Below, piece after piece: positions 11,294-28,455 of a stretch of 30,980 nucleotides of DNA. Source of the DNA: a virus; the IMG/VR virus record IMGVR_UViG_3300037882_000980, positions 1 through 30,980 of that record; one strand, written 5' to 3'. Position 1 is the stretch's first letter, and every line of letters begins with the position of its first letter. The position numbers and the translations under genes are program-made. A model generated the notes under the pieces. It was not told the origin of the DNA. It did no database searches and saw only the letters and a list, made by a program, of their open reading frames with translations.

Positions 11294-11302
11294 TGCTAGG
11301 TT
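11294..11302 (+). promoter_or_regulatory. Extended -10 promoter TGCTAGGTT
   Basis: TGC plus TAGGTT (11297-11302) ends 6 nt before the ATG at 11309. No -35 is apparent. Member of the window-wide extended -10 set. Confidence 0.5.
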
Positions 11303-11308
11303 TTGGGC

Positions 11309-11470
11309 ATGGATGATGTCATCTTCGTCGTTTACGCGATTGACTGCGCGTGCGACTGCTGCGGGTACGTCGCGTGCCGAACTTTTGATGCGCGTGACGA
11401 GGCGGAGATTTGGATTGCATCACAGCCGAACCCACATAACTACTTCATAGAAGAGGAAGAAGCGCCGTGA
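11309..11470 (+). CDS. Cys-rich protein, 53 aa, probably leaderless
   Basis: Starts MDDVIFVVYAIDCACDCCGY. Five Cys (C-x-C-x-C-C ... C) give a likely metal site. The tail is acidic (YFIEEEEAP). No ribosome site, but a TGCTAGGTT element ends 6 nt before the ATG. The stop overlaps the next GTG. Function unknown. Confidence 0.65.
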   Translation: MDDVIFVVYAIDCACDCCGYVACRTFDARDEAEIWIASQPNPHNYFIEEEEAP

Positions 11471-11682
11471 AAGTGTTTATGCAGGAAGGCAACGACCCTT
11501 ACGGAGCCACCGAGCTTGTGATTATGTTGCACGACGCAGGCTCCGACATGAACGTGTGGTCGCTGGATGTTGCTGGCGAGGAGCGCGTGTTTTTTGAGGT
11601 TGCCGAAGATGGTGACGCGATTGACATTATTGATGCAGCGTTTGAGGCGCGCAGGAAGATGAAAGAGGATAGCAATGGCTAA
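11467..11682 (+). CDS. Hypothetical acidic protein, 71 aa
   Basis: GTG start overlapping the upstream stop (GTGA). Sequence MKVFMQEGNDPYGATELVIM begins a beta-alpha pattern; the rest is acidic with a C-terminal helix (AIDIIDAAFEARRKMKED). Overlaps the next gene by 8 bp. Function unknown. Confidence 0.7.
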   Translation: MKVFMQEGNDPYGATELVIMLHDAGSDMNVWSLDVAGEERVFFEVAEDGDAIDIIDAAFEARRKMKEDSNG

Positions 11683-11992
11683 AGCACAAAACGTAGAAGT
11701 CTCGTTGGATCGCCAGTCGCGTGACAGTATTCGGTCGCTGGTGGCGGCGGTTGATGGGCTTGCGAAGGCGATCAATGACGGCAAGAAGGTTGACACTGAT
11801 TGGGTTGCAAACCCTGGCGATGTTGCCATCCTTCAGCGGCTTGTGGAGGATGTGACGCGGCGCGAAACTTCTGACGGCCAATCGCTGCCCAATGATGAGT
11901 CGTATTACCGTGATGCCGATGGGCGCTTGCAGCGCGATAGGCGTGATCGCCCTAACGTTGACCAAGTTTTCACTGAGCGAACGGCGGGCTAG
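11675..11992 (+). CDS. Hypothetical protein, 105 aa
   Basis: Starts MAKAQNVEVSLDRQSRDSIR with a long helix (SIRSLVAAVDGLAKAINDGK) that may form a coiled coil, and a charged disordered C-terminus (DADGRLQRDRRDRPNVDQ). Resembles small coiled-coil proteins found before terminase genes in many phages. Function unknown. Confidence 0.75.
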   Translation: MAKAQNVEVSLDRQSRDSIRSLVAAVDGLAKAINDGKKVDTDWVANPGDVAILQRLVEDVTRRETSDGQSLPNDESYYRDADGRLQRDRRDRPNVDQVFTERTAG

Positions 11993-11993
11993 G

Positions 11994-12236
11994 ATGATCG
12001 AGTTGTCTGAAACCCCTACCGAGTACACGGCGCGTTACGCCAAAGTGGTGCCGAGTGTGCAGGATGCGTTCGTGTTTGTGATGGCCCACATGGACAAAGT
12101 TGGCGCTGACGTCGAGGTGTTGATTACACCGGTTTGGGCGCACGGGCATGGCCTTGACGGCGAAATGATTGCACCGCAACGCATGTTCGAGGTTGCCGTG
12201 AGTGGGATGGTTGAACTTCCAGACGTGGTAGGCTAG
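11994..12236 (+). CDS. Hypothetical protein, 80 aa
   Basis: Starts MIELSETPTEYTARYAKVVP one base after the preceding TAG; a longer upstream frame overlaps the neighbour. Beta-rich C-terminal half (DVEVLITPVWAHGHGLDGEM). The last codons GGC TAG are also part of a TGGTAGGCT promoter-like element. Last gene before the double terminator. Function unknown. Confidence 0.7.
   Translation: MIELSETPTEYTARYAKVVPSVQDAFVFVMAHMDKVGADVEVLITPVWAHGHGLDGEMIAPQRMFEVAVSGMVELPDVVG
12226..12234 (+). promoter_or_regulatory. Extended -10 promoter TGGTAGGCT
   Basis: TGG plus TAGGCT (12229-12234) overlapping the end of the preceding gene. A start near 12241 would give an RNA of about 65 nt ending at the terminator at 12271-12308, with no gene inside. 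Confidence 0.4.
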
Positions 12237-12270
12237 TTCCATTCCGCCAGATGTTTCGACTACTGGTTGC

Positions 12271-12308
12271 GGCCCCTGACCTTTACTGGTTGGGGGCCTG
12301 CTTCTTTT
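12271..12308 (+). terminator. Rho-independent terminator
   Basis: 11-bp stem (12271-12281 with 12288-12298, including two G-U pairs), loop TTTACT, then a T-rich tract (CTTCTTTT). It ends transcription of the small-gene operon. Confidence 0.75.
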
Positions 12309-12309
12309 G

Positions 12310-12318
12310 TGCTAGGCT
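12310..12318 (+). promoter_or_regulatory. Extended -10 promoter TGCTAGGCT between two terminators
   Basis: TGC plus TAGGCT (12313-12318). A transcript starting near 12325 would meet the next terminator after about 45 nt. It has no gene of its own. Confidence 0.4.
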
Positions 12319-12330
12319 AAACCTGTTACG

Positions 12331-12370
12331 ACCACCCGGCTCGGCTTCGGCCTCCGGGTGGTTTTCTTTT
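12331..12370 (+). terminator. Strong rho-independent terminator with UUCG loop
   Basis: ACCACCCGG (12331-12339) pairs with CCGGGTGGT (12354-12362); an inner GGC-TTCG-GCC forms a stable tetraloop; a TTTTCTTTT tract follows. Insulates the structural operon from upstream transcription. Confidence 0.85.
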
Positions 12371-12378
12371 GCTAGACT
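12370..12378 (+). promoter_or_regulatory. Extended -10 promoter TGCTAGACT for the terminase operon
   Basis: TGC plus TAGACT (12373-12378) directly after the terminator T-tract and ending 7 nt before the small terminase ATG, implying a leaderless message. No -35 match, since the terminator hairpin occupies that position. Confidence 0.6.
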
Positions 12379-12385
12379 GGCCTGC

Positions 12386-12898
12386 ATGGCAGGTACAGGG
12401 CTTTCAATGCGGGATCAAAAAGTGCTAGACCTTGCCTACAAGGGGTTGACCGCCGAAGACATCGCTGCGGAAGTCCACGCACCCGTCGAGGTTGTGGTAC
12501 GTGAACTAGACCGGCTTACCGGCACGCTGGACTGGCTGACTGACCTCCAGCGCATGAAATTGCTCACGCATGGCGTGCAGAGTCTTTTGGGGGCGCTCAA
12601 GGACAAGGCCGAGTCAGGGCAGGATGCGCTGATTACGACGGCTTACATCAATGCGATCAAGTTGGCGTTTGACCAGTTGGAGCGGCAGAGCGCAAAGATT
12701 GACGCTGACATTGCCGTCGTTCAGAACGCCCAAGCAAAGGTGCTTGTAGATATTGTTGACCGAGCTTTTTATCACACTCTTGGAAAACTTGAGGGGCGCT
12801 TCAAAGAAATGGGTTTGCCTCGGGAAGAAATTGAGCAAGTCTTTCAGCAGAGCATTATGACGGTTGCCGCTGAGATTGATGCGCAAGGGGCCAACTAG
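12386..12898 (+). CDS. terS: Terminase small subunit
   Basis: 170 residues; the ATG at 12386 (MAGTGLSMRDQKVLDLAYKG) is chosen over the longer frame because terminators lie inside that extension. Residues 8-45 form an HTH (KGLTAEDIAAEVHAPVEVVV) expected to bind the packaging site. The rest is long helices (LGALKDKAESGQ, FDQLERQSAKIDADIAVVQN), fitting an oligomerisation core. TerS rings deliver concatemer DNA to TerL at the portal. Identification rests on size, HTH and position before terL; an endonuclease gene now separates the two. Confidence 0.75.
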   Translation: MAGTGLSMRDQKVLDLAYKGLTAEDIAAEVHAPVEVVVRELDRLTGTLDWLTDLQRMKLLTHGVQSLLGALKDKAESGQDALITTAYINAIKLAFDQLERQSAKIDADIAVVQNAQAKVLVDIVDRAFYHTLGKLEGRFKEMGLPREEIEQVFQQSIMTVAAEIDAQGAN

Positions 12899-12904
12899 GT
12901 AGTG

Positions 12905-12910
12905 TATACT
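12905..12910 (+). promoter_or_regulatory. -10 element TATACT for the first homing endonuclease
   Basis: TATACT (5 of 6 consensus) ends 7 nt before the GTG at 12918, giving a leaderless message for the inserted endonuclease gene. Confidence 0.55.
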
Positions 12911-12917
12911 TTTTAGG

Positions 12918-13958
12918 GTGCAGAGCAATAATTTGATTTACGGGCTTTCGTGCCTATGCCACCCCGAGCGCGGAATACGATACGTAGGCAAGACTACGCA
13001 GGGAACAAAGTTGCGCCTAGCCGAGCACATTAAGCGTGCGCGGAATCCGCACTATCCGGTCAATCATTGGATTGCAAAGCATGGTTCAGAAAACATCTCA
13101 ATCAACGTTTTGGAGTATTGCGATCCAGCCCAACTTGATGCTGCCGAAGAAAAGTGGATTGCCGAGTTGCGCACCTTTCGAGACTGGAAGCAGGGCGGTC
13201 TAAACGCAAGTCTCGGAGGTCGCAATATGCCCCTAACTATTGAAAAGGTCAAGCAACACGTTGCGGATTCAATAAAGAGGGGCCGTCCAAACCAAGTGCT
13301 TAGTTGGGAAAAGGCAAAAGAGATTCGTGACTACTACTTAAATAACGAAGTCAGCATGTCTCAGGTCGTGCGAGATTTAGGATTGCCGAGAGCGGCAGTG
13401 ATGTCATGCCTTTCAAACGAAACCTGGAAAGACCCGGACTACCTACCAATTGTCAGAAGGATCAAATCCGAGCGCGCAAAGTCTGCGCAAAAACACGATC
13501 CATATTCCAGCAATAGAGCAAAGTTTAACCCTCAGCAAGTTATTGAACTGCGATACGAATACTGCCAAATTGGCACTAGCGCACAGGATTTGGCAAAAAG
13601 GCATTCGTGCTCGTATCAAACAATGGTTATGCTTCTCAACAACCAAACATATTTCGATCCCGAATACGCCAATACAAGAAAAGACAAGTTCCCAGGCATT
13701 AGCCAGTCGCATCGTGACGCAATTAGCGCAAGTAGCAAAGGCCACAAAAAGCCTGAGGGCTTTGGCGCTAAGATTAGTGCAGCCATGACGGGCGAGGGGC
13801 ACAGCATGGCAAAACTTACCGAGGCTCAAGTAGTTGAGATGCTTGCAAGATTTGCGAAAGGCGAAACCGTAAAGACTCTTGCTGGCGAGTATGGCGTTAG
13901 CGTCGCACAGGCGAGGCGAATAAAAACCGGTGAGCGATGGGGGCACCTTCCAAGATGA
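12918..13958 (+). CDS. GIY-YIG homing endonuclease
   Basis: 346 residues from a GTG with no ribosome site but with TATACT 7 nt upstream. The N-terminal GIY-YIG nuclease motif is visible as IYGLSCLCHPERGIRYVGKT, followed by the Arg/His part (LRLAEHIKRA) and WIAKHG. The C-terminal two thirds contain repeated DNA-binding modules with HTH-like ends (MSQVVRDLGLPRAAVM, SAQDLAKRHSCSYQTM, TLAGEYGVSVAQARRI). It sits between terS and terL and overlaps the terL start. Such free-standing enzymes cut the matching gene junction in phages lacking them and spread by repair. Composition is more AT-rich than the neighbours, fitting mobility. Confidence 0.88.
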   Translation: MQSNNLIYGLSCLCHPERGIRYVGKTTQGTKLRLAEHIKRARNPHYPVNHWIAKHGSENISINVLEYCDPAQLDAAEEKWIAELRTFRDWKQGGLNASLGGRNMPLTIEKVKQHVADSIKRGRPNQVLSWEKAKEIRDYYLNNEVSMSQVVRDLGLPRAAVMSCLSNETWKDPDYLPIVRRIKSERAKSAQKHDPYSSNRAKFNPQQVIELRYEYCQIGTSAQDLAKRHSCSYQTMVMLLNNQTYFDPEYANTRKDKFPGISQSHRDAISASSKGHKKPEGFGAKISAAMTGEGHSMAKLTEAQVVEMLARFAKGETVKTLAGEYGVSVAQARRIKTGERWGHLPR

Positions 13959-15568
13959 GCATTACCGACATTGCGGGTATCGCCCTAGAGAAGTTAGATC
14001 AGAAGTCCAAAGCTCGTAGATACGTTAACGATCCCGTAGCCTGGGCCGAAGAGTACCTTGGCCTTCAACTCTGGAGTAAGCAGAAGGAAATCCTCTATTC
14101 CATCCGAGACAACCGCGCAACTGCCGTAGCGGCGGGGCACGGCGTGGGAAAAAGTTTTGTTGCTGGCGTTGCGGCTTGCTGGTGGATGGACGTTCACCCA
14201 CCGGAAGAAGTTGCGCTTGTGTCTACGGCACCTACTGTTGCGCAGACGGACGTTCTATGGAACAACATTAAAATGTTTTACGCCATTGCAGAGCGGCGCT
14301 ACAACGAGGGCCTTGTCGATCACAAACTTCCGGGTTATGTTACCGGCGATAACAAGCTCAAGATTGATGGCCGCAAAGTGGGTGAAGGGCGCAAGCCCGC
14401 CGAGCAAAACGCTCAGGACAGCCTGCAAGGAACCCACGCCACTTACCTTTTGGCGATTGGCGACGAAGCGGTGGGTCTAAGCAATAAGATTCTTGATGCT
14501 CTTGGCAACATGGCCACCGGCCCGCATAACCGCCAGTTGCTTATCGCCAACCCGACCGATCCGTCTTCCGCGATGGCGCAGATTTGGAAAAAGAACCTTT
14601 CCCAGTGGCGTCGAATGCACATCGGTGTTTTTGATTCACCTGCGGTTACAAATGAGCCTGGCTTTGACGTTTCGCAAGCTTCTGCGCTTTCCGGCCTCGA
14701 CTACATTGAGCAGATGCGGGAGCAATGGGGCGAAGATCATCCCATCTACATTTCTCGCGTGCTTGGACAGTGGGCATTCGATAGGGGCAACTCGGTCTTC
14801 ACCGAAAGCGACATTACCAACTGTCTAAACGCTTACGTGTTACCCGACCCGGATGCCCCAATCCATTTGGGCGTTGACATCGCCTGGAGCGACAAAGGTG
14901 ACTTTAGTTCCATCTACTCGTGCCAGTCGGGGGAAGTGTGGGAGACTGACGACGAAACCGGCAAGCCCGCCATCGCCACCGGCAGGCAGGGTTGGATTGT
15001 GCGCCGCGTAGCCATTTGGAAGGGAGCACCGCTGGCGGGGCATAACCCGGACAATCCGAGCAACGCTGACCGCATCGTTGACTTTACGATGGCTACTGGT
15101 GGGCAGTTTGTGAAGGTGGACTCGTCGGGCGTTGGCATGGCGGTCATTCAAGATTTGGCGTCAAGAGATTTGACGTTTGACTTGTACAAGATGGCCGGTG
15201 GCGATCCGGCGCGAGAAAACAAGACCTACACCAACTCGCGCGCTGAAGCGTTCTTTGACATGAAGATTGCAGCACACCAAGGGTTGCTTGACCTCGACAT
15301 TGACGATGAAGATTTTATCGACCAGTTGCGGAGCATCCAGTACGAATATGATGCGCGTAACCGGATCAAGATTCAGTCGAAAGCCGACATGCGCAAAGAG
15401 GGCAAAAAGTCTCCCGACTTTGCCGACGCCGCCTGGTATTCGTTTTACATCCCCGAAGACATGCGGGATGAGTTCGGGCGGCTGGGGAGCGTTGTTGCTG
15501 TTGAGCCTGAAGAAATCCCCGATTTTGGTTTTCACGACCTAATCACCTCTGAAGGTTGGCCCATGTAG
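13937..15568 (+). CDS. terL: Terminase large subunit
   Basis: 543 residues. ATPase motifs: Walker A as AAGHGVGKS (about residue 61) and Walker B as LLAIGDEA (about 170-177). The nuclease domain has HLGVDIAWSDKGD (first acidic residue, about 313), FVKVDSSGVG and a final DFADAAWYS acidic cluster. It pumps DNA into the capsid and cuts the concatemer. ATG at 13937 has GGTGA 3 nt upstream; an ATG at 13955 that overlaps the endonuclease stop (ATGA) is an alternative. The 22-bp overlap with the endonuclease gene suggests insertion reshaped this start. Confidence 0.93.
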   Translation: MGAPSKMSITDIAGIALEKLDQKSKARRYVNDPVAWAEEYLGLQLWSKQKEILYSIRDNRATAVAAGHGVGKSFVAGVAACWWMDVHPPEEVALVSTAPTVAQTDVLWNNIKMFYAIAERRYNEGLVDHKLPGYVTGDNKLKIDGRKVGEGRKPAEQNAQDSLQGTHATYLLAIGDEAVGLSNKILDALGNMATGPHNRQLLIANPTDPSSAMAQIWKKNLSQWRRMHIGVFDSPAVTNEPGFDVSQASALSGLDYIEQMREQWGEDHPIYISRVLGQWAFDRGNSVFTESDITNCLNAYVLPDPDAPIHLGVDIAWSDKGDFSSIYSCQSGEVWETDDETGKPAIATGRQGWIVRRVAIWKGAPLAGHNPDNPSNADRIVDFTMATGGQFVKVDSSGVGMAVIQDLASRDLTFDLYKMAGGDPARENKTYTNSRAEAFFDMKIAAHQGLLDLDIDDEDFIDQLRSIQYEYDARNRIKIQSKADMRKEGKKSPDFADAAWYSFYIPEDMRDEFGRLGSVVAVEPEEIPDFGFHDLITSEGWPM

Positions 15569-15574
15569 GTGCGA

Positions 15575-15580
15575 TAGAAT
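15575..15580 (+). promoter_or_regulatory. -10 element TAGAAT for the portal gene
   Basis: TAGAAT ends 7 nt before the portal ATG at 15588, with no ribosome site in between. Not of the TGN type here (CGA precedes it). Confidence 0.5.
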
Positions 15581-15587
15581 GGGTTTT

Positions 15588-17147
15588 ATGCCTGAATCGA
15601 CGCCTTTCCAAGCCATTGAAGAACAGTTCGATGCTTTGCGCACCGAAAATGAAGACTTGCGGGAAAGTCTCGACAATGTGCGGCGCTCGCTCGCTTTTGA
15701 GGATCGTGGCTGGACACTGATTTCAGGCGTGCTTGGCAACGACCATTCTGAAGGCCTCACGCTCGATGAAGTGAAAGACATTTCCGAGACTATTCGCCCC
15801 TACGTGGTGGGCGGTAGCCTCATGCAGCGCGGCGTCAACCTGCGGCGCGGGTATGTGTGGGCGAAAGGCATCCACATTGAAGGCGTGGAGCCGAGCAAGA
15901 AGGCTGGCGCTCCGAGTCGTTTGCGGCGCTTCTACGAGCGGCAAGTAAACCAGGACAACTTGTTTGGCGCTTCAGCGCATTCGGAAATGGAGCGGTGCGC
16001 GTACACGGATGGCGTGCGGATTGCACTGTGCTACACGGCGCTGGATGAGGTGCGTTCGTTCCCGCTGGAGCAGGTTAGCGACATTCGGTTCAACCCGGAT
16101 TTCCCCGACGAAGTGTGGGCAATTCAGCGAACGTGGCCCGCGCCGGAATCGGGCAAGGTTCGTAAAGAATGGTTCTACACTAACAAGTTCACGGGCGCGC
16201 GCCAGAAGAGCATTAGTGTCAACAACGAGAACGTCAAAGTTGCCGAAAACGTTACGGCGGTTGTGAAGCGATTTAATCGCCAAACGGGTTGGCCGATGGG
16301 TCTGCCGGACTCGATTGCCGCACTACCTTGGTATGAGGCGTATTCGGAGATTATGCGTTACGGGCGCGTTGTCAATGAGGCGCTGTCGAAGATGCTGTAC
16401 AAGATCACCACTAAGAGTGGCAAGGCGGCGACTGCTACCTCCACGAAGGTGAAAAACGCTACCGGTCACGGCCAGACTGCGGTGATGACGGACGGCCAAG
16501 ACCTCCAGGCGATCAACACTGCCGGTAAAGGTTACGACTTCACTTCGGCGCGTCCCGTTGCGGCGATGATGGCTGCGGCACTTGATGTGCCCAACATTGA
16601 GCTTCTGTCTGACTCGGCTGCGGCTGGCTCATCGTATGGTGCGGCGCAGTCGCTTACGCCTTCCACGATTAACGCGATGCGTTTCCGCCAGGATGAGTGG
16701 GTTGAGTTTTACGCCGAAGTGTTTTCCGCTTTCTCAATTCCGGTGCCGAAGATGTGGTTTGATCCCATCCAAGAGCCTGACCCGTACCGTGAGATGCAAC
16801 GCTCCATCATCGCTTGGGGCACTGGCCTGCTCCACGCCGACGAGGGCCGTTCCAACATCCTAGACATTCTCGACGTTGCGCCCTTGCATGACAAGGCCCC
16901 CGATGGCGTCATGCTGCCGAACAATACGGCATCCCTGCCACGCAAAGACGTTGACACGGATGTGAACACTCAGGCCGCATCTCCCGACCAGGGGCGCGGC
17001 AATAACACGGGCGGTAATGATGTCGGCGCTAACGACATGCGAACCGATATTCTGTCAAACGCTTTGCAAAGTTTTCGTTTAGACGAAATGCGCGAATTGG
17101 TGGAACGGTTTGAGGCTACCGCTATTGCGCTTAGGGGCGACGCATAA
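15588..17147 (+). CDS. Portal protein
   Basis: 519 residues. ATG at 15588 (MPESTPFQAIEEQFDALRTE) is chosen because the earlier in-frame ATG lies inside the -10 hexamer. N-terminal coiled coil, then the portal body: SDIRFNPDFPDEVWAIQRTW in the wing region and an Ala-rich segment (AAALDVPNIELLSDSAAAGS) followed by SYGAAQSLTPSTINAMRFRQ, typical of actinophage portals. The C-terminus has an Asn/Gly-rich linker (QGRGNNTGGNDVGAND) and a final helix. It forms the dodecameric DNA gate at one capsid vertex. Probably leaderless. Confidence 0.88.
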   Translation: MPESTPFQAIEEQFDALRTENEDLRESLDNVRRSLAFEDRGWTLISGVLGNDHSEGLTLDEVKDISETIRPYVVGGSLMQRGVNLRRGYVWAKGIHIEGVEPSKKAGAPSRLRRFYERQVNQDNLFGASAHSEMERCAYTDGVRIALCYTALDEVRSFPLEQVSDIRFNPDFPDEVWAIQRTWPAPESGKVRKEWFYTNKFTGARQKSISVNNENVKVAENVTAVVKRFNRQTGWPMGLPDSIAALPWYEAYSEIMRYGRVVNEALSKMLYKITTKSGKAATATSTKVKNATGHGQTAVMTDGQDLQAINTAGKGYDFTSARPVAAMMAAALDVPNIELLSDSAAAGSSYGAAQSLTPSTINAMRFRQDEWVEFYAEVFSAFSIPVPKMWFDPIQEPDPYREMQRSIIAWGTGLLHADEGRSNILDILDVAPLHDKAPDGVMLPNNTASLPRKDVDTDVNTQAASPDQGRGNNTGGNDVGANDMRTDILSNALQSFRLDEMRELVERFEATAIALRGDA

Positions 17148-17168
17148 ACTTTAGCCAAAATCCGGTGA

Positions 17169-17177
17169 TGATATGAT
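17169..17177 (+). promoter_or_regulatory. Extended -10 promoter TGATATGAT
   Basis: TGA plus TATGAT (17172-17177), 10 nt before the ATG at 17188, so the leader would be only a few nucleotides long. Confidence 0.45.
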
Positions 17178-17187
17178 TGTGAGTATC

Positions 17188-18090
17188 ATGTCGGAGATGC
17201 TTACTGAAGTCGCCACCGCGCCGGTTAAGGCCGGAAAGCGTTGGCGCGTAAAGATCGCCACGCCCGGCCAGGGTTCCAGCGGCTACTACTCTGCTGACGT
17301 TTTGCGTGAGTATGGCCCGGTTGCGATTCCGGCTGGTACGAAAGCGTTTCTTGGGCACGCTAAGCCTCAGGATCGCAGTCTGCGCGATTTGGTTGGCACG
17401 TATCCCGATGGCGCTTTTTGGGTAGAGGAAGAGAACGCGCTTTTTGCTGACCTCCAGCCCGCCACAAAGAAGTGGGCCGACGTGCTGGATGAGTTGGGGC
17501 CGCTTGCCGGTGCCAGCATCAGCGTTTCTGGCAGCAAAGATGCCCAAGGCAACGTACTCACAATGGAGTACCACCGCGCAAACAGCGTTGACCTCGTTCC
17601 CGAACCGGGCCTTGAAGGCTCTGGCTTGCAGGAGCAAATCGAAAGTCTTATCGAATCGGCACGTTTTGATTCGGAAAAACCTGGCGTCACCTCGGCGTCC
17701 ACGGAGAAAGAAATAATGGACAACAAGGAAATCCTTGAAGGCTTTGCGGCCCTCAAGACCCTCGTTGAGACCCTTATTGCCAAGATCGATGGCAAGACGC
17801 AGGTCGAGGCCCAGGCTAAGGTTGACGCCGAGGCTCTGGACGCGGCTGTGACGGAGGCCCTTACGGCTTTCGACGCCAAGCGTGCGCTCATCGAATCGGT
17901 GGAGCTTCTGCCCAGTCAGCGCGCGTCGCTGATCGAGCAGGCGCGTAGTGGTGCAGATGTTGCACCGCTCATCGAGCAGGCAAAGAAGGTCTTTGACGAG
18001 GCTAAGTCGGCTGTTCTCACTGAGTCTGAGGTTGGGCGTGGCTTCACGTCGCCCACCGAAGACTGGAACGTTAGCGGGGTGCGGTTCTAA
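17188..18090 (+). CDS. Capsid maturation protease with C-terminal scaffold-like region
   Basis: 300 residues from ATG 17188 (MSEMLTEVATAPVKAGKRWR); in-frame ATG/GTG codons at 17173 and 17179 lie in or next to the -10. The N-terminal 150 residues match actinophage prohead proteases: AGTKAFLGHAKPQDRSLRDL then VGTYPDGAFWVEEENALFAD and GASISVSGSKD. His in FLGHAKP and Ser in ASISVSGS are plausible catalytic residues. The C-terminal half is helical and charged (coiled coil), as in scaffolds. It processes capsid proteins after assembly. It precedes the decoration and capsid genes as expected. Confidence 0.82.
   Translation: MSEMLTEVATAPVKAGKRWRVKIATPGQGSSGYYSADVLREYGPVAIPAGTKAFLGHAKPQDRSLRDLVGTYPDGAFWVEEENALFADLQPATKKWADVLDELGPLAGASISVSGSKDAQGNVLTMEYHRANSVDLVPEPGLEGSGLQEQIESLIESARFDSEKPGVTSASTEKEIMDNKEILEGFAALKTLVETLIAKIDGKTQVEAQAKVDAEALDAAVTEALTAFDAKRALIESVELLPSQRASLIEQARSGADVAPLIEQAKKVFDEAKSAVLTESEVGRGFTSPTEDWNVSGVRF
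17716..18090 (+). CDS. Probable nested in-frame scaffold protein
   Basis: An internal in-frame ATG (17716) preceded by ACGGAGAAAGAAATA could start a 124-residue product beginning MDNKEILEGFAALKTLVETL. It is almost entirely helical and charged, as scaffolding proteins are. Lambda makes its scaffold Nu3 from an internal start in the protease gene C in the same way. No separate scaffold gene exists between protease and major capsid gene, which supports this. Confidence 0.6.
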   Translation: MDNKEILEGFAALKTLVETLIAKIDGKTQVEAQAKVDAEALDAAVTEALTAFDAKRALIESVELLPSQRASLIEQARSGADVAPLIEQAKKVFDEAKSAVLTESEVGRGFTSPTEDWNVSGVRF

Positions 18091-18530
18091 TGGCAATGAA
18101 CATGACTCTGCACTACTCGAAGACTGAAGTGTGGCCCGTTGTTGACGGAACCCTCTCGGGCGCTGCGGTTGTTTCGACCGCCGCAAGTGGTCGTCAGCCC
18201 GGTGTCGCTCTCACGTCTGAGGGCGGTGCCACTCGTAGCGAGACGTTTGGCCCGTACACCATCAGTGGCATTCCCTCTGGTGGGGTTGGCCTTCCCGACA
18301 ACTACGCTACCGTCGCAATTGATGGTGCATTCCGGTTCCCCGTGGTTGGCGCTTCGGCTTCAACTGCGGTCAACACGCCGGTCTACGCTGTTGTTTCCAG
18401 CGACGCCGTTACTGGCCTTACGTTGACTGCCAGCACCAACCCGCCTTTCGGCAAGATTCACCGTTTCCTTGGTGAAACTTCCGCGACGGAGTGCTCGGTA
18501 GTCATCGGTGACTTTGTGGATGCGACCTAA
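18090..18530 (+). CDS. Capsid decoration protein (DUF2190-like)
   Basis: 146 residues starting MAMNMTLHYSKTEVWPVVDG; TAATG overlap with the protease stop. Beta-rich. The segments GVALTSEGGATR, VNTPVYAVVSSDAVTGLTLT and GKIHRFLGETSATECSVVIG follow the pattern of DUF2190 head-stabilising proteins, which sit on the capsid surface as trimers at threefold positions. Found directly before the capsid gene in many siphophages. Confidence 0.7.
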   Translation: MAMNMTLHYSKTEVWPVVDGTLSGAAVVSTAASGRQPGVALTSEGGATRSETFGPYTISGIPSGGVGLPDNYATVAIDGAFRFPVVGASASTAVNTPVYAVVSSDAVTGLTLTASTNPPFGKIHRFLGETSATECSVVIGDFVDAT

Positions 18531-18531
18531 T

Positions 18532-19680: not shown

Positions 19681-19698
19681 GTAGCCCCGTAGCGAAAG

Positions 19699-19721
19699 CC
19701 CCCGTTTCGGCGGGGGTTTTT
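19699..19721 (+). terminator. Rho-independent terminator after the capsid gene
   Basis: CCCCCG (19699-19704), loop TTTCGG, CGGGGG (19711-19716), then TTTTT. Stops most capsid transcripts before the inserted endonuclease gene. Confidence 0.85.
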
Positions 19722-19726
19722 GCTTG

Positions 19727-19735
19727 TGCTAATAT
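19727..19735 (+). promoter_or_regulatory. Extended -10 promoter TGCTAATAT for the second endonuclease
   Basis: TGC plus TAATAT (19730-19735), ending 6 nt before the ATG at 19742. Gives the inserted gene its own leaderless transcript downstream of the terminator. Confidence 0.6.
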
Positions 19736-20569: not shown

Positions 20570-20574
20570 TGCGC

Positions 20575-20580
20575 TAAACT
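20575..20580 (+). promoter_or_regulatory. Candidate -10 element TAAACT
   Basis: TAAACT lies 42 nt before the next start, leaving a leader that carries the AAGGAAAACC ribosome site. The preceding CGC is not a TGN extension, so support is modest. Confidence 0.35.
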
Positions 20581-20823: not shown

Positions 20824-20857
20824 TCCAAATAGGGTTACACCCGACAAGGTAACGCTA

Positions 20858-20891: not shown

Positions 20892-20895
20892 CTTC

Positions 20896-20904
20896 TGCTA
20901 CACT
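20896..20904 (+). promoter_or_regulatory. Extended -10 promoter TGCTACACT for a candidate small RNA
   Basis: TGC plus TACACT (20899-20904), just 5 nt after the terminator T-tract. Initiation would fall near 20911. No convincing gene follows before the next terminator. Confidence 0.5.
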
Positions 20905-20910
20905 TATGTC

Positions 20911-21007: not shown

Positions 21008-21014
21008 GCGCCCC

Positions 21015-21023
21015 TGGTAGAAT
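21015..21023 (+). promoter_or_regulatory. Extended -10 promoter TGGTAGAAT for the fibre module
   Basis: TGG plus TAGAAT (21018-21023). The leader of about 26 nt contains GGAAAGG upstream of the ATG at 21056. Confidence 0.55.
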
Positions 21024-21055
21024 TGGTGTAACCGTTTGGAAAGGTTCCCACAAAC

Positions 21056-21397: not shown

Positions 21398-21857
21398 AGT
21401 TGTTGAGGTTTTAACGCCAGCGGTTGCGGCGGTTGTTGAAGTTTCCACGCCAGCAATTGCCGATGTCGTAGAAGTTGTTGAACCCGCCGAAGTTGGCGTT
21501 GTGGAGGTTGTTGAACCCAGCGTTGTAGGCTTTGTCGAGGTTATCGAACCTGGCCCCTACGAAGTTGTCGAGGTTATCCAAGTTCAGGGCATCCCCGGCC
21601 CCCCTGGGCCTGCGGGCGGCTTGCAGGACACGTTTGAAACGGTTGCGCAGAACTTGGAGGGGTCTGCGTATTCGTTGACGTGGGCGGGTGGTTTGGTGTC
21701 GTCGGTGGTGTACGTGTCGGGGGTGACGAAAACGTTTGCCTATTTGGGGGATGTGTTGTCGTCGGTGACGTTGAGTGGTGCGACACCGGGCGGCATTGAT
21801 TTGGTGAAGTCTTTTACGTATTCGGGGTCTGAGTTGGTGGGGGTGGCTTACAGCTAA
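21390..21857 (+). CDS. Repeat-containing fibre protein with collagen-like motif
   Basis: 155 residues from GTG. Residues 3-63 are about five imperfect repeats of VVEV(V/I)EP-x4-VG spaced 10-11 residues, then GIPGPPGPAG, a short collagen-like G-x-y run. The C-terminal half (SLTWAGGLVSSVVYVSGVTK) is beta repeats around a YxG pattern. Such a protein would form a trimeric rod. It is located next to beta-helix proteins and before the connectors, so a capsid or neck fibre is likelier than a tail fibre. Repeats at DNA level (GTTGTTGAACCC) suggest expansion by slippage. Confidence 0.65.
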   Translation: MPEVVEVLTPAVAAVVEVSTPAIADVVEVVEPAEVGVVEVVEPSVVGFVEVIEPGPYEVVEVIQVQGIPGPPGPAGGLQDTFETVAQNLEGSAYSLTWAGGLVSSVVYVSGVTKTFAYLGDVLSSVTLSGATPGGIDLVKSFTYSGSELVGVAYS

Positions 21858-24427
21858 TGGCAACGTTTACGATTACTACAGCGCAGAACATTGACGCGCT
21901 TGCGTCAAAAACGGGTGGCGACCTCTACAACGTCAACGGTGGCACACTCACCATCGACCAGGACTCTCGTGTGGGTTTGAATCAGACCACATCTACCACG
22001 ATGGGTAGCATCACCCTGTCGGCGTCGCTGGGCGGCACGGTCAACATTGACGGCACCGCAGTTTGGATGATTCCCTACACGGGCGGTTCGGGCAACGTGC
22101 CTGCGTGGAACGCGGTCATCACGAATGGCACAGGCACAGGCAAGTTGATTGGCGTGCATTCGGCGCTGACGGCGGCATCAACCGCCACGGGCGCTGCTAT
22201 GCCCGCGACGGGGTTCATCCGGGTGAAGCAGAAGTCGGGCGACTACGTGGCTGGCGCTCTGACGGGTATTACGGCGACGGCGGCGGACGCGGGGCGTGTG
22301 GGTTGGCTGGAGATTGCGGGCGATGAAGCGGCCACGGTAAACGCTAACCGTTTGGGAACTTTCAACATCACGGGCGCATGGTACGAGGTTGGCACGACCA
22401 GTGGCGTGTCGAATCAGACGATGCAGATCCCCAACAACGGCCTGTTGCGGTACGCGGCGGGTGTGTTCATCGAGCAAACTGTCGGCGGTGGAGACTACGA
22501 GTTCTACCCGAACGCGGGCATTGTCACAACTACGGGCACGGAGGCCGCTCGGGGCAAGTGTGTGTGGATTGACAACACGGGGTTGGTTCGCATTGGAAAC
22601 TCGGGCGCTGCGACGAACGGTTACACGCCAGTTTCAGGTTTGAAGGTTGTCATCGGCAACATCTTCTTTGAGAACTGCACAACCGCAGCACGTACTGCAA
22701 ACGTGATTCCGAACGCGACGGTTGCTACCCGCTACGACTTCACCACTACGGGTGGCGGGGTGGTGTCGATTGATAAGTGCAACATGGCGTGGTATCTGTC
22801 GTGCACGCAGGCGTATTCGGTGAACGTGTCCAACTCTGGGTTTGTTGACGCCATCCTTCTGTCGGAGGTTGCGACGGCGATGACGTTCACGAATGTGGGG
22901 GTCGGCAACAAGCCGACGACCGCTTTGGTGGTTGCGCCCCTCACCATGACGTTGTGCCTTGCGGGCGGGACTTTTACTGACTGCCGCTTTCAGCGGGTTG
23001 CGACAGCGGCAAACAACTCAACTCAGGTGGTTTTGACCGACTGCGACGGGTTCACATTCACTCGTATGCAGACACGGTATGCGGCTTTGCGCGCCCACAC
23101 GCTGCCCACCTCTATCAGCGCCAACCGCGTCAACAACACCACGTTCACCGACCTGACCATGATCGACGGCCAGTTTGCGCTTGCTACCTGCTCCAATGTG
23201 ACGATCACGGGCACCAAATACATCGGACAGGTATCCGGCACCACCGGCACGGCAAACCCGTGCACCATTTTCCTGCCCACATCGAACTGCCTCAACCTGA
23301 CCATCGACGGGTTGACGTTTCCCGTAACCAACACGCACCCGTACACGGCCCTCGTGACGGTAGGTGTGGCCGGATGCACCAACACGACCATTCGCAACAT
23401 TGGCACCTACGCTTCACCGCTGAGCTTGGGGAGCGCGAACGCTACCGGATACATTTTCACTCTCGGCGGTGGCGCGGCGGCAATCAACACTCGCGTGCAA
23501 CGAGTGTATTGCTCTAACACTCGTTCGGGCATGATGACGGGGGACAACTCGTCTAAAGGTCTCACCATACAAAACGTGTCAGGCGACTATGCTGACGCGG
23601 CAGACGTGTCGGCTGTCATCAACTTGACGCAACGCGCCCTCGGGGGCACGAAGGCCCTCACCGCTCAAACGGGTGTGTACGGCACGCATTGGCTGGACTA
23701 CTTCACGTCCACCACGGCGGGCCGTCTGGCGGTGGTGATGAACGAACCCACCGCAGAAACAGCAACGCAGGTTACGTTGACGGGCGGTGCGGCGTTCACC
23801 GCAGCGGGCGGATTGTACATGCCCACCATTGGGCAGTCGGCAACGTTTGAAACGCCCAACTTTGTCATCGGCCACACCGGCTTCACCAACTCTGCGCTGG
23901 TCATGGCTGGCGGTACGGCGACGAACTACAACTACAACTATTCCATCGACAAAAATGATGGCAACGGTTGGTCAACGATGACGGTGGCAAACTACACGCC
24001 CACCACGCTTGGCACGGCCCTCAACGGCATCACCGGTTTGAGCGCGATCCTCGGGTTCAAGTTGCGACTGAAAGTGACCACCACGGTCACTAACACGACG
24101 GCGATTACGTCCGTGTACATGCCCACCACGTCAACCACAACTACGCAGGCATACCAATACCCGCTAGACACCATCACCCTCACCCTGACGGGTTTGGTTG
24201 CCGGGTCAGACGTGGTGGTGCTTGCGGCAGGCACCGACACGGAGCGGGTGAACGTGGATGCGAACCCCACCACCACCTACGGATACGTATACGAAACGCC
24301 AGAAGCAATCGACATTGGCGTGTTCAAAGCCGGATACGTGCCGTTCTACATTCGCAACTACTCACTCACCTCCAGCAACGCCAGCCTCCCCATCGCCCAA
24401 ATCGCTGACCGCAACTACATCGCATAG
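21857..24427 (+). CDS. Large beta-helix virion protein, 856 aa
   Basis: Starts MATFTITTAQNIDALASKTG (TAATG overlap). The sequence is rich in Thr, Asn, Gly and Val with repeated strand-turn rungs such as NVTITGTKYIG, LNLTIDGLTFPV and NTTIRNIGTYA, the pattern of right-handed beta-helices found in fibres and adhesins. The C-terminal part (about residue 690 on) has fibronectin-like strands (YNYNYSIDKNDGNGWSTMTV). No enzyme residues identified. Probably a surface appendage; its place between capsid and connector genes suggests head fibre. Confidence 0.65.
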   Translation: MATFTITTAQNIDALASKTGGDLYNVNGGTLTIDQDSRVGLNQTTSTTMGSITLSASLGGTVNIDGTAVWMIPYTGGSGNVPAWNAVITNGTGTGKLIGVHSALTAASTATGAAMPATGFIRVKQKSGDYVAGALTGITATAADAGRVGWLEIAGDEAATVNANRLGTFNITGAWYEVGTTSGVSNQTMQIPNNGLLRYAAGVFIEQTVGGGDYEFYPNAGIVTTTGTEAARGKCVWIDNTGLVRIGNSGAATNGYTPVSGLKVVIGNIFFENCTTAARTANVIPNATVATRYDFTTTGGGVVSIDKCNMAWYLSCTQAYSVNVSNSGFVDAILLSEVATAMTFTNVGVGNKPTTALVVAPLTMTLCLAGGTFTDCRFQRVATAANNSTQVVLTDCDGFTFTRMQTRYAALRAHTLPTSISANRVNNTTFTDLTMIDGQFALATCSNVTITGTKYIGQVSGTTGTANPCTIFLPTSNCLNLTIDGLTFPVTNTHPYTALVTVGVAGCTNTTIRNIGTYASPLSLGSANATGYIFTLGGGAAAINTRVQRVYCSNTRSGMMTGDNSSKGLTIQNVSGDYADAADVSAVINLTQRALGGTKALTAQTGVYGTHWLDYFTSTTAGRLAVVMNEPTAETATQVTLTGGAAFTAAGGLYMPTIGQSATFETPNFVIGHTGFTNSALVMAGGTATNYNYNYSIDKNDGNGWSTMTVANYTPTTLGTALNGITGLSAILGFKLRLKVTTTVTNTTAITSVYMPTTSTTTTQAYQYPLDTITLTLTGLVAGSDVVVLAAGTDTERVNVDANPTTTYGYVYETPEAIDIGVFKAGYVPFYIRNYSLTSSNASLPIAQIADRNYIA

Positions 24428-24435
24428 GACACCTC

Positions 24436-25938
24436 ATGGCAAAGATCACAGACCCCGACCTCATCAACGTTGGCACCGAACTCACCCTCGACACTGCCGC
24501 ATCCACGTTCACCCTCAACGTGGCAGGCAACCTTGTCGCCAAAGACGGTGTGACCATTCAGGCGCTGTACTCAAAGTTTGTTGACCTGTGGACAACTTCG
24601 GCTTACAACAAGTTCGAGTTCCCCATGTACACCATCGACGCAAGTTCCGGCCAGTACCAGTTCGGTACAGATGGGGCGACGTTCTCGGGCTGGAAGCCTG
24701 CCAACGATGCGACCCGTCAAATGCTCCGAGACGGTGGTTGGTCAGAGTTCACCTCGGCGGGCGTGCTCGACCGGCAGTATGTGGGCATCGTTTCGCTTGG
24801 TGAAGTGAACGCGGGCGCACAGCTCTACTACCAGAAAACTTCCGGCGGTGCGGCGGCTGACTTCACGTTCACCGACGAAGTGAACGAAGGCATCCTCGTC
24901 TACCAGGATGGCGGCATCGACAACCGCACCTACTTCAAAGGGTACGTGCGTGAGTACGCGAAAAAGTACGACGACTCGATCTTGGCCGACACCGGTCTTT
25001 CGGCTACGGGCGCGTTCAAAGTCAACATGCTGCTTGGTAACGAAGACGACCTGAAGATTCAGGACACTGACGTAAACGTTGCCGCGAACGCTCCCTATAC
25101 GGGCATCACGGCGACGTGGGTTTCCGGCACCGGGTTCACCACTGCCACCGTGGGTAGCCTGTCGGTTGACGATGTGCGGCAGGACACGGCTGGCCGTTGG
25201 TTCCGATGCACTGGGGCGGGCACCATCGACGCGGCAGGTGTGGCGAACTACACGGCGAACGGTGGTACGGCGACGCTGGCCGCTTTTGCTGGAGAGCGTG
25301 AAATCGGCGGCTCCTACTACCCGTTCTCGATCATTGTGGACGGCAACGGCGCGGTGGCCGAAGACGTGTACACGAAGATTCAGTACCTGCTCCGTCAAAA
25401 CTCAGACATCGACTCGGGCGCTGGAACTCAGACGGGCATCGTCACCCAACTGCTTATGGGCTTTGTGGGTGACACGCTCATCACCACGACGGGTGTGTAC
25501 ATTGACGACTACGACGCGAACGATGTCAACCGTCTCACGTTCACCGACTCGACCGGCGTGGCGCGTACCGAACCGTACACGGCGACGGGCACGCTGAACT
25601 TCAATAGCGTGCTGACCGCTGGCGGAACCGGCTACTACCGCATGTACTTCACCGACTTGGCGGGTGCCAACGACTACGGCCTGACGGGTGCCATTACGGT
25701 TCAGAACGCCCTTGGTGTAGATGTAGCGGGCACCATCACCGGATCGTCCATCCCATTCACGTTCGACTATGACGGGAACGTGCAGGGTGGTCGCACGGCG
25801 GGCACTAACGCGGCAGTGACAGTGGTTGCCGGTAACGCTGGTTCCGCTAAGCCGGTCGTCACGACTTACACCATCACTCGCGCAACGAACCAGGGCATTA
25901 CGTTGACCGCAGAGACCGACCGCGCCTACCTTGTCTAA
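24436..25938 (+). CDS. Virion structural protein, 500 aa
   Basis: Starts MAKITDPDLINVGTELTLDT after AGGACACCTC. The N-terminal 200 residues are mixed alpha/beta (ALYSKFVDLWTTSAYNKFEF, ATRQMLRDGGWSEFTSAGVL); the rest is beta-rich with Gly/Thr repeats (TATWVSGTGFTTATVGSLSV). The motif DLW with W/Y-rich neighbours also appears at the start of the next gene, suggesting the two share a domain. Likely a fibre or head-surface component; no known family is recognised. Confidence 0.6.
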   Translation: MAKITDPDLINVGTELTLDTAASTFTLNVAGNLVAKDGVTIQALYSKFVDLWTTSAYNKFEFPMYTIDASSGQYQFGTDGATFSGWKPANDATRQMLRDGGWSEFTSAGVLDRQYVGIVSLGEVNAGAQLYYQKTSGGAAADFTFTDEVNEGILVYQDGGIDNRTYFKGYVREYAKKYDDSILADTGLSATGAFKVNMLLGNEDDLKIQDTDVNVAANAPYTGITATWVSGTGFTTATVGSLSVDDVRQDTAGRWFRCTGAGTIDAAGVANYTANGGTATLAAFAGEREIGGSYYPFSIIVDGNGAVAEDVYTKIQYLLRQNSDIDSGAGTQTGIVTQLLMGFVGDTLITTTGVYIDDYDANDVNRLTFTDSTGVARTEPYTATGTLNFNSVLTAGGTGYYRMYFTDLAGANDYGLTGAITVQNALGVDVAGTITGSSIPFTFDYDGNVQGGRTAGTNAAVTVVAGNAGSAKPVVTTYTITRATNQGITLTAETDRAYLV

Positions 25939-25952
25939 ACTGGAGGCAACCT

Positions 25953-26459
25953 ATGTTGAGCTTCGACGGGCCAACAAAACTCATCACCATCACAACAGTC
26001 AACGAACTGGACGTCAAAGACCTTTGGTCGCGTTGGCTTGACTGGTGGTTGACGGGCGATAACAGTAAGTATGGTGTCGCCATGCAACAGGTTGGCGGTA
26101 ACGACATTGACCCTGTTGCGGGCACATCCATCCCGATCTACGTTTACTTGCTAGACGGGTGGAAGGTTCGACCGCGGGAAGCAAACCACACGTTGCAGGT
26201 GACGCACGGCATCCTGCTAACGGATGACGGCAGCGACCCGTTTGTGAACACGGTCGGTGCGTTTATGGTTCGGGTCAACTATCAGCAGCCGGTTCAGGCG
26301 TTGACTGTTTCGACGGGCGGCGGTGGCGGTTTGACTGCTCAGCAGGTTCGAGATGCCATGGCTTTGGAGTTGTCTGCTGTGGCGGAGCCGGACAGCGTTG
26401 ACGCGAAACTGGATGCGGCTGTGGCTGCGGCTCGGCTGTCGGCGGCGTTGAGTGCTTAG
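25953..26459 (+). CDS. Virion structural protein, 168 aa
   Basis: Starts MLSFDGPTKLITITTVNELD after CTGGAGGCAACCT. The N-terminal domain (VKDLWSRWLDWWLTGDNSKY, GWKVRPREANHTLQVTHGIL) resembles a beta-sandwich with a conserved DLWSRW helix. A Gly-rich linker (STGGGGGLTAQQVRDAMALE) leads to a C-terminal helix. Similar two-part proteins occur near phage fibres. Exact role unknown. Confidence 0.6.
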   Translation: MLSFDGPTKLITITTVNELDVKDLWSRWLDWWLTGDNSKYGVAMQQVGGNDIDPVAGTSIPIYVYLLDGWKVRPREANHTLQVTHGILLTDDGSDPFVNTVGAFMVRVNYQQPVQALTVSTGGGGGLTAQQVRDAMALELSAVAEPDSVDAKLDAAVAAARLSAALSA

Positions 26460-26464
26460 GCCTG

Positions 26465-26470
26465 TAGAAT
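26465..26470 (+). promoter_or_regulatory. -10 element TAGAAT for the connector operon
   Basis: TAGAAT (TG directly before it) ends 6 nt before the ATG at 26477, implying a leaderless transcript. Confidence 0.55.
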
Positions 26471-26476
26471 AGTTAT

Positions 26477-26926
26477 ATGTCTAACCCTGGCGTTTCCCCA
26501 CCTGACTTCACCACAACTGTCGGCCAGTTCCGTCTGCTCGCAAACGACGTTTACAATGTGCCGCTCAGCCCCACCGTGGCAGGCCAAGGCGACTACACGC
26601 TGTTTTCGGATGCTGAAATCGACGGCTTTTTGGCTTTGCAGGGAAACGTTTACCGCGCTGTAGGGCTTGCCTATTTGAGTTTGGCGAACGCTGCCGCACT
26701 TGAAGCGGAGTCAATCAAAGACTACGACTTGGCTGTTGACCGTCGCCAAAAAGCGGAACAGTTGCGCCTACAAGCAAACACTTTTTTTGCTCAAGCCGAC
26801 ACTGCCGACATGGAAGGCGATGAAGGTTTCCTGATTGTTGACACGGGCAAACAGTACGAGTGGCCTCCCGAACTTGGGCCGGTGCCGGTGACGCGCTGGC
26901 CGTGGCCTACCGGGTACATTGTCTAA
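26477..26926 (+). CDS. Head-to-tail adaptor
   Basis: 149 residues starting MSNPGVSPPDFTTTVGQFRL. The helical pattern (YTLFSDAEIDGFLALQGNVY, RAVGLAYLSLANAAALEAES, YDLAVDRRQKAEQLRLQANT) matches connector proteins of the HK97 gp6 type that form a ring below the portal. It is the first of four short genes in the usual adaptor-stopper-completion-terminator order. Leaderless start. Confidence 0.75.
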   Translation: MSNPGVSPPDFTTTVGQFRLLANDVYNVPLSPTVAGQGDYTLFSDAEIDGFLALQGNVYRAVGLAYLSLANAAALEAESIKDYDLAVDRRQKAEQLRLQANTFFAQADTADMEGDEGFLIVDTGKQYEWPPELGPVPVTRWPWPTGYIV

Positions 26927-27348
26927 TGAGGGCACCTTCGCAGTGGGCTGATTCTATTGCCAACGTCAGCACTCAGTTTATGAATGCGACGGTGGACATC
27001 CTTGACCCTTCTGAAGTCGTATCAACTTTTGACGTGGACACCAACGCTTACACGTCCACCGGAAACGCCGTGGTGGCTGAAAACATTTCGGCGCGCGTAC
27101 AGCCCGTCAGGCTTTCCGTTGATTCGCGCGGTGGTGGTAATCCTAGCGGCGAGGTTCGCATCCGAGTGCAAATACCTCGTGACTCGTACAGTGGGCGGAT
27201 CAAACGCGGCTGGCTGATTAGTGTCACTGCCGCCGAGCGCAACCCGGAACTGCTTGGCTACCTGTTTGTGGTCGATTCTGAAGTGAACTCGTCTTGGCGC
27301 GCAACGACCACCATTGAGGCGACTGTGAACGTAGAAAATGTCGTCTAA
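26926..27348 (+). CDS. Head-to-tail stopper
   Basis: 140 residues from ATG 26926 (TAATG), starting MRAPSQWADSIANVSTQFMN. A beta-barrel pattern (NATVDILDPSEVVSTFDVDT, AENISARVQPVRLSV, VRIRVQIPRDSYSGRIKRGW) fits stopper proteins, which close the connector after packaging. Assigned chiefly by position and beta-rich pattern; the longer upstream frame is rejected. Confidence 0.65.
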   Translation: MRAPSQWADSIANVSTQFMNATVDILDPSEVVSTFDVDTNAYTSTGNAVVAENISARVQPVRLSVDSRGGGNPSGEVRIRVQIPRDSYSGRIKRGWLISVTAAERNPELLGYLFVVDSEVNSSWRATTTIEATVNVENVV

Positions 27349-27773
27349 TGGGAGTCAAGTACACGAAAGGTAGCCCGCAGGCGCTTATCGCAGAGTTGCA
27401 GAAGCGCAAGCGTGAAATCCCGCTGAAGGCTTTTGCCATCGTTGATGAAAGCGTAAAAGAGGGCGAAGAAATCCAACGCGACTTCCTTGACAAAGCGACT
27501 ACGCCTTATGGCCGCTACCGCTTCGGGCGCAATATCGGTAACAGTGCCGGACGTAACGATTCTGGCGACATGATGAAAGCAATTTCGTCTGACACGAAGA
27601 AAGAGTCGAAAACCCTCATCGTAGGCCGCTGGGGCTGGCTGAAAGAGATTCTTGAATACTTTGAGATTCAAGAAAAAGGCTACGGAGTGCCTGAAGCGCG
27701 CAGCCTGCTGGATTCCTATGTGGTTGTGCGCGAAAAGTTTATGGCGAGAATGAAAGCAGAGTTCGGACGATGA
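27348..27773 (+). CDS. Tail completion / HK97 gp10-like protein
   Basis: 141 residues (MGVKYTKGSPQALIAELQKR), basic, with an N-terminal long helix (ALIAELQKRKREIPLKAFAI) and a beta part (KTLIVGRWGWLKEILEYFEI). Position, size and the GWLKEILEYFEIQEKGYG segment fit HK97 gp10-like neck proteins. Ends in ATGA overlap with the tail terminator gene. Confidence 0.7.
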   Translation: MGVKYTKGSPQALIAELQKRKREIPLKAFAIVDESVKEGEEIQRDFLDKATTPYGRYRFGRNIGNSAGRNDSGDMMKAISSDTKKESKTLIVGRWGWLKEILEYFEIQEKGYGVPEARSLLDSYVVVREKFMARMKAEFGR

Positions 27774-28201
27774 CGGTCAACCCTTACGCAGACCAGGAAG
27801 CACTGGCCGCATACTTCCGCACTCAACTTGCGCAAGACGTGCTCGAAGACGGCTACCCGGAACCCGGCGACATGCCGTGGACGAACAACATCCTCGTTCC
27901 CTACATTGTGATTGACTTTGGTTCGCCGGTTGCGACCACGCAGGGCCGAAGTGTGGCCGGTGAGGAGAAGCAGCCCACTAGCCAGCGGGTCGTCTTGAGC
28001 GCGGTGGCTTCCAGCGGCAAAGTGGCGCGTGAAATCGCTGGCAAGATTGCCGAAGTGGGGACGGGGTATTCGGTGTCCAGCAACACGGGGCCGTTGCGGC
28101 TGGTCGGTGGGGGGCAGTTCAGCCAAGTCGTTGAGTCGAAACCGACAGTGTACGTGAGTGAAGTCTACTTTTTGTACTGGGCTAATCTCACCGACGCATA
28201 A
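27770..28201 (+). CDS. Tail terminator protein
   Basis: 143 residues (MTVNPYADQEALAAYFRTQL). N-terminal helix, then strands (VPYIVIDFGSPV, QRVVLSAVASSGKVAREIAG) and a C-terminal strand (PTVYVSEVYFLYWANLTDA), like lambda gpU/HK97 gp9 terminators, which cap the tail tube. Order before the tube gene supports this. Confidence 0.7.
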   Translation: MTVNPYADQEALAAYFRTQLAQDVLEDGYPEPGDMPWTNNILVPYIVIDFGSPVATTQGRSVAGEEKQPTSQRVVLSAVASSGKVAREIAGKIAEVGTGYSVSSNTGPLRLVGGGQFSQVVESKPTVYVSEVYFLYWANLTDA

Positions 28202-28221
28202 TACACCCTATGGTGTAAACT
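28202..28221 (+). promoter_or_regulatory. Palindrome overlapping a -10 element (TAAACT)
   Basis: TACACC-CTAT-GGTGTA is a perfect 6-bp inverted repeat at 28202-28217. The -10 TAAACT (28216-28221) overlaps its right arm and ends 6 nt before the ATG at 28228. A protein bound to the palindrome would block the tail-gene promoter. Confidence 0.55.
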
Positions 28222-28227
28222 GGACTC

Positions 28228-28455
28228 ATGCCTTTAGCAATCAACACTGTCACCGGAGTGATTAGGGATTATCCCAGTAACATCATTTCGCACCGGAAAC
28301 TCGGCAAAAACCTCGAACTGTATTTCGAGGACGAAGAAGAGTCCGACAAGGTTGTTATTGCCAAAAAGGTCTACCCCAAGAAGTCCGAGGCTCCTGCGGA
28401 GGACAAGACTACCAAGGAGTCCCCTGTGACTGATCTTTTTGAGGATGGTGAATAA
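28228..28455 (+). CDS. Hypothetical protein before the tail tube genes, 75 aa
   Basis: Starts MPLAINTVTGVIRDYPSNII with no ribosome site but a TAAACT element 6 nt upstream. Strand-rich N-terminus, then a charged Glu/Lys tail (KKSEAPAEDKTTKESPVTDL). Stop overlaps the next ATG as TAATG. In the position of a small tail protein, but no family is recognised. Confidence 0.7.
   Translation: MPLAINTVTGVIRDYPSNIISHRKLGKNLELYFEDEEESDKVVIAKKVYPKKSEAPAEDKTTKESPVTDLFEDGE

Follow-up and report, generated by a model that had tools for sequence, protein, structure and literature searches.

The whole stretch of DNA analysed here, hereafter the window, is a virus record of 30,980 bases (IMG/VR record IMGVR_UViG_3300037882_000980) whose genes lie in two arms, one leftward and one rightward. 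The rightward arm is the virion module and carries the terminase small subunit gene (assigned by position), a homing endonuclease gene, TerL, the portal, protease and capsid genes, a second endonuclease gene, head-tail genes, the tail tube gene and the tail assembly chaperone gene. Our subject is a family of -10 promoter elements (TANNNT) that end 6 or 7 nt before start codons of this arm, a placement that suggests leaderless mRNA. The closest relatives of the window are IMG/VR contigs (TerL identity 62-84%; other genomes are referred to below by handles such as L004 or G002), and the TerL of phage Pan2 is 66.7% identical. At about 33% TerL identity one finds Microbacterium phages and also a Leifsonia aquatica prophage, and the majority of hits are to phages of Microbacterium, Arthrobacter and Streptomyces. 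With capsid-protein queries, no relatives were found in viral or genome contigs.

Direct reading of all eight rightward sites bore out the positions and gaps listed in the initial annotation, the gap being counted from the end of the hexamer to the start codon (forward strand throughout, unless noted). The gap is 6 at ATG 11309 (TAGGTT at 11297..11302 with a TGC extension, the same in G002 and L004), at ATG 19742 of a homing endonuclease gene (TAATAT at 19730..19735, TGC extension), at ATG 26477 of a head-tail connector-like gene (TAGAAT at 26465..26470) and at ATG 28228 (TAAACT at 28216..28221). It is 7 at ATG 12386 of the terminase small subunit gene (TAGACT at 12373..12378, TGC extension), at GTG 12918 of the other homing endonuclease gene (TATACT at 12905..12910) and at ATG 15588 of the portal gene (TAGAAT at 15575..15580). 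At ATG 17188 of the prohead protease gene the gap is 10 (TATGAT at 17172..17177, TGA extension), which would leave a leader of about 4 nt. The TG extension described for this family is a true TGn at 11309, 12386 and 19742 (3/7) and also at 17188, but at 12918, 26477 and 28228 the TG lies immediately against the hexamer, and at 15588 there is neither. Most genes inside the units overlap or abut the preceding stop and have no such site.

Gaps of 6 or 7 occur at 7 of the 31 rightward starts. Under a first-order Markov null built on the same upstream regions, 0.80 starts on average would show such a gap, and 7 came up in 0 of 20,000 simulations; the binomial P ranges from 9e-7 (local background) to 5e-6 (composition). 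The excess over shuffled sequence that had been predicted for the motif itself did not appear, TGNTANNNT being seen 27 times window-wide against 30.7 expected, and it is only its position relative to starts that is special. The genome-wide TANNNT-to-ATG spacing, taken without restriction to gene starts, was too noisy. One may also suspect that the motif had guided the choice of start codons (12386 over 12251, 15588 over 15579), a concern that is answered by the orthologous proteins, which align from these residues.

The proposal that the motif would stand 6-7 nt before starts in related phages as well agrees with a pooled set of 1,469 starts, obtained with one simple mechanical gene caller across TerL-related loci. 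In this set the gap was 6 for 88 genes and 7 for 61, as opposed to 11, 27, 29, 38 and 27 genes at gaps of 5, 8, 9, 10 and 11, respectively, so that the peak falls at exactly 6 and 7. Internal ATG/GTG codons of the same loci showed three-base (codon) periodicity only, and lambda and HK97, passed through the same pipeline, gave no gap peak. In Pan2, where the starts annotated in GenBank were set by others, gaps 6 and 7 account for 7 of 102 starts (P 0.0015), and additional sites lie at gap 8 and, if the start of gene 13 is moved to 8848, at gap 7. In the pooled loci a pyrimidine (C/T) lies right before the ATG in 76% of gap-6/7 ATG starts, compared with 46% of other starts (P 3e-10). Transcription initiation usually prefers a pyrimidine-purine step at +1. 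In Mycobacterium tuberculosis, 85% of transcripts start on a purine (PMC3898074). Taken with this purine-start preference, the pyrimidine at -1 independently supports a transcription start on the A of the ATG.

The -10 element and its spacing are retained, despite changed flanking bases, at five orthologous starts (terminase small subunit, portal, protease and two head-tail genes) among the genomes compared, namely freshwater relatives, Pan2 and the Microbacterium phages Lifes and Roman, bearing in mind that orthologues are not independent samples. For the terminase small subunit the gap is 6-7 in L004, Pan2 and G006, 6 in L032, L033 and Roman, and 9 in G002 and L002. The portal gene has TAGAAT, TAGACT, TAAACT, TACCAT and similar hexamers at a gap of 6-7 in the window, L017, Pan2, G006, L004, L032, L033, L025, Lifes and Roman. 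The protease is more variable, close relatives having a gap of 10, Pan2, L004 and G006 one of 8, and L032, L033, L025 and Roman one of 6-7. For the 26477 gene the gap is 6 in seven genomes (the window, G002, Pan2, L004, G006, L032 and L033), at a protein identity of 37-63%, and for the 28228 gene it is 6-7 in four (the window, G002, Pan2 and G006), with a gap of 7 at 23081 in Roman. Each endonuclease gene examined (12918 in the window and its counterpart in L005, 19742 in the window, and those of G002 and L017) has its own gap 6-7 promoter, and the insertions thus come already equipped with a leaderless promoter.

As to promoter type, the best TTGACA match at the late sites is no better than at random TANNNT sites (2.0, 1.7 and 1.8 versus 2.3-2.4), and a sigma-70 two-box scan found nothing at these starts. 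Of 35 family sites, 15 have TGn, as do, in the pooled set, 54/161 sites at gap 6/7 versus 153/599 at other gaps (P 0.046); in M. tuberculosis it is found in 7% of TANNNT promoters, where it marks the stronger ones (PMC3898074). The same -10 type also occurs ahead of ordinary leaders, as had been noted for 21015, 29748 and 30888 and is likewise the case at 20575: TAAACT at 20575..20580, followed by the Shine-Dalgarno (SD) sequence AAGGA before ATG 20623; TGGTAGAAT at 21015..21023 (ATG 21056); TGCTAGACT at 29748..29756 (ATG 29811, tail assembly chaperone); and TGGTAGAAT at 30888..30896, ahead of the tape-measure gene with a leader of about 30 nt. Since the leadered SD units (20623, 21056 and 29811) share the -10 type further upstream, we argue that the element acts in transcription and is not a translation signal. 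The family had also been taken to include the leftward gene at 9286. This gene has the same spacing and its reading frame is genuine, with 49% identity to Lifes gp5; the leaderless geometry is conserved too, but its hexamer, GATAAT (9293..9298, reverse strand), is not TANNNT. Its promoter reads TTGCGC-17-GATAAT-6-ATG and that of the Lifes orthologue TTGACA-17-TACTAT-6-ATG, so that a -35 is present; judging from this one gene pair, early and late genes may differ in promoter type.

Several promoters directly follow hairpins. Terminator-like hairpins stand before the terminase small subunit promoter (12271..12298, z -5.2, and 12330..12363, z -5.2, the second followed by a T-rich tract) and before that of 19742 (19691..19724, z -5.7, after the major capsid gene). 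An extra promoter with the -10 TGCTAGGCT (12310..12318) lies between the first two, so that 12300-12386 reads as a tandem terminator-promoter-terminator-promoter with a predicted terminated RNA of about 40-50 nt; in G002 the first hairpin is directly followed by the terminase small subunit promoter, as a single unit. At the tail assembly chaperone junction (window 29748-29811; Pan2 about 10368-10416; the same layout in G002), a strong hairpin at 29757..29791, before AGGAGG, begins within the start region of the promoter, and is predicted to fold fully in read-through RNA (-27.2 kcal/mol) and partially in RNA from the promoter itself. A putative terminator is annotated at the same chaperone junction in HK97.

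Upstream of every late leaderless promoter of two relatives, L032 and L033, lie CTG repeats at 11-bp steps, the last CTG providing the TG ahead of the -10 (L032 9412-15978; L033 9415-15933). A start codon lies 6-7 nt downstream of these array promoters at 5/5 sites in L032 and 5/5 in L033, with none expected in shuffles; the whole contigs have 6 and 8 array sites, and at 12 of these 14 a start codon follows at 6-7. A close variant occurs in L025 (11803 and neighbours; mean pairwise match 15.8/30 versus 8.1, equalled in 0 of 5,000 random sets), and arrays are also located in the G008 contig (L126, L128). There are no such sites in the window, G002 or G006, and the single match in Pan2 lies away from any start. 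From their sequence the arrays look like a putative, uncharacterised late-activator site, and they are more novel than the leaderless layout itself. Between the capsid and head-tail genes (L032 about 15871-15960, L033 about 15831-15920), an array promoter is followed by a very short open reading frame with a GTG start (12 and 20 codons) and then by terminator-like sequence.

Position statistics, the spacing kept in diverged orthologues, the pooled peak, the pyrimidine at -1, the lack of a -35 and endonuclease genes with their own promoter all speak for the leaderless reading of the initial annotation. We thus consider it highly probable that these elements are late-module promoters of a host-type RNA polymerase, with the -10 set so that the mRNA begins on the start codon or one base before it. 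Under this model a host RNA polymerase with the primary sigma factor would use TANNNT, often with TG upstream, without a -35. In each late unit the promoter-proximal cistron would be leaderless and translated without an SD sequence, as is usual in Actinobacteria, and the following cistrons would be translationally coupled through TAATG-type overlaps. Where a promoter is placed directly after a terminator, a compact module of terminator, promoter and start would result, and a promoter of this kind would come with the homing endonuclease insertions. The proposed phage-wide system of independently started units fits the late module, and less so the leftward one, where few starts show the site.

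Several points weigh against this reading. The polymerase, the exact transcription start sites, the mode of translation and the late timing are inferred from sequence, the record is probably incomplete, and an estimated quarter to a third of the pooled gap 6/7 matches are due to chance. At gap 7 the start may lie one base upstream of the start codon, and where the gap is 8-10, at 17188 and its orthologues, a leader of 2-4 nt is likelier than a leaderless transcript. The observation that these starts have no ribosome site is true but partly imposed by geometry, as the hexamer sits in the SD position: an SD 5-mer at -16 to -5 is found in 0/161 pooled gap-6/7 starts, which is weak evidence with the hexamer filling that place, and SD depletion was dropped as independent support. 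Nor is the arrangement obligatory, the terminase small subunit and head-tail units of Lifes being leadered with SD sequences; the gene caller gave only one gap-6/7 start in this phage, since a number of its units have leaders or a gap of 9.

One may also consider that the promoters are real but secondary. A small number of strong promoters further upstream would then supply most late mRNA, and translation of genes such as those for the portal and protease would depend mainly on coupling or re-initiation on read-through RNA, with the internal leaderless promoters topping up the supply. Many starts do lie 17-26 nt after the previous stop with no terminator between (15568-15588, 26459-26477, 28201-28228), but under this scenario one would hardly expect the -10 spacing to be retained while the flanks diverge, terminators to stand before 12386 and 19742, or relatives to have a shared array at each such promoter, and we regard it as possible but rather unlikely.

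A further explanation, which we also find doubtful, is that the polymerase is under phage control, i.e. that a phage activator or sigma-remodelling protein confines the -35-less promoters to late infection, as is thought for gp39 of Thermus phage P23-45. It is favoured by the contrast between late sites without a -35 and the -35/-10 pair of the leftward gene (TTGACA-17-TACTAT in Lifes), by the phased CTG repeats that precede late leaderless promoters in L032, L033 and L025, and by P23-45 itself, where the late promoters, of the extended -10 class, are less affected by gp39 (PMC7403470). However, no upstream box is common to the sites of the window family: the seven resemble one another slightly more than random TANNNT sites do (P 0.003), with low column information and no consensus beyond T/TG near the -10. 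A Pfam scan of 61 Pan2 proteins likewise found no sigma factor or known remodeller, giving one weak LuxR/GerE-type helix-turn-helix match, although small uncharacterised proteins could still act. More speculatively still, and in our view improbable, the lineage may run most virion genes as leaderless units under a dedicated late switch, in which the host polymerase uses the -35-less promoters only with a phage factor. This factor would bind the 11-bp-phased CTG repeats in L032, L033 and L025, the last repeat doubling as the extended -10 TG, and the branch of the window would have lost the box or replaced it by the TG extension alone. Finally, that short intergenic gaps accidentally left AT-rich motifs near starts is very hard to believe, even if TGNTANNNT is not enriched window-wide and the gaps are indeed short, since crowding predicts a broad spread of gaps rather than a peak at 6-7, and is contradicted by the orthologue conservation and the -1 pyrimidine bias.

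The preferred reading, of late promoters for leaderless mRNA, has known counterparts. TANNNT about 12 bp upstream (counted from its first T) is the accepted signature of leaderless genes, which average 19% in actinobacterial genomes (PMC3160421), and genes of the window show this TA-led arrangement, with TANNNT about 10-12 bp upstream of the start, in conserved form. The motif, the distance, the lack of SD and the host-wide habit are the same; what differs is that here they mark conserved late phage units and that the TG extension is more frequent than in M. tuberculosis. Leaderless promoters (PL1, PR2 and PL2) have also been predicted in a phage of an actinobacterium, in the Cluster O mycobacteriophages (Corndog; PMC4351075). 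In contrast to the -35-less series found here at the terminase, portal, protease and head-tail genes, the SigA promoters there were predicted by a sigma-70 -35/-10 scan, and two lie in a divergent control region. Transcripts of P23-45 are leaderless. Its middle and late promoters are of the extended -10 class (PMC7403470), to which some of ours may also belong, but its host belongs to another phylum, and no gp39-like factor was identified here among the Pan2 proteins scanned. We found no report of leaderless expression in Microbacterium phages in the literature searched. Leaderless TANNNT genes themselves being already known, the novel part is their serial use across the late module and the depth of its conservation.

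The actinobacterial host assumed in the initial annotation is supported by most cultured relatives, while Pan2 (ON968453.1) is labelled a phage of the cyanobacterium Pseudanabaena; its nearest cultured relatives, found with the terminase and capsid of the window, are mostly Actinobacteria phages. The G+C content of Pan2 is reported to be significantly higher than that of its stated host, and co-existing bacteria were present in the culture (PMC9837993). The host assignment of Pan2 deserves a check. In the control region between the two arms of the window (9298-9752), CGCGCGTAATAG occurs three times and TGACTACGTTTTCCACATCAA, 21 nt long, is directly repeated, with copies 28 nt apart.

The placement of the -10 element gives a sequence rule by which transcription units and start codons can be located in phages of Actinobacteria, whose annotation relies on Shine-Dalgarno sites. 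A further suggestion is that virion genes, whose products are needed abundantly, can be expressed from leaderless mRNA, and the CTG arrays of the relatives point to an uncharacterised late activator.

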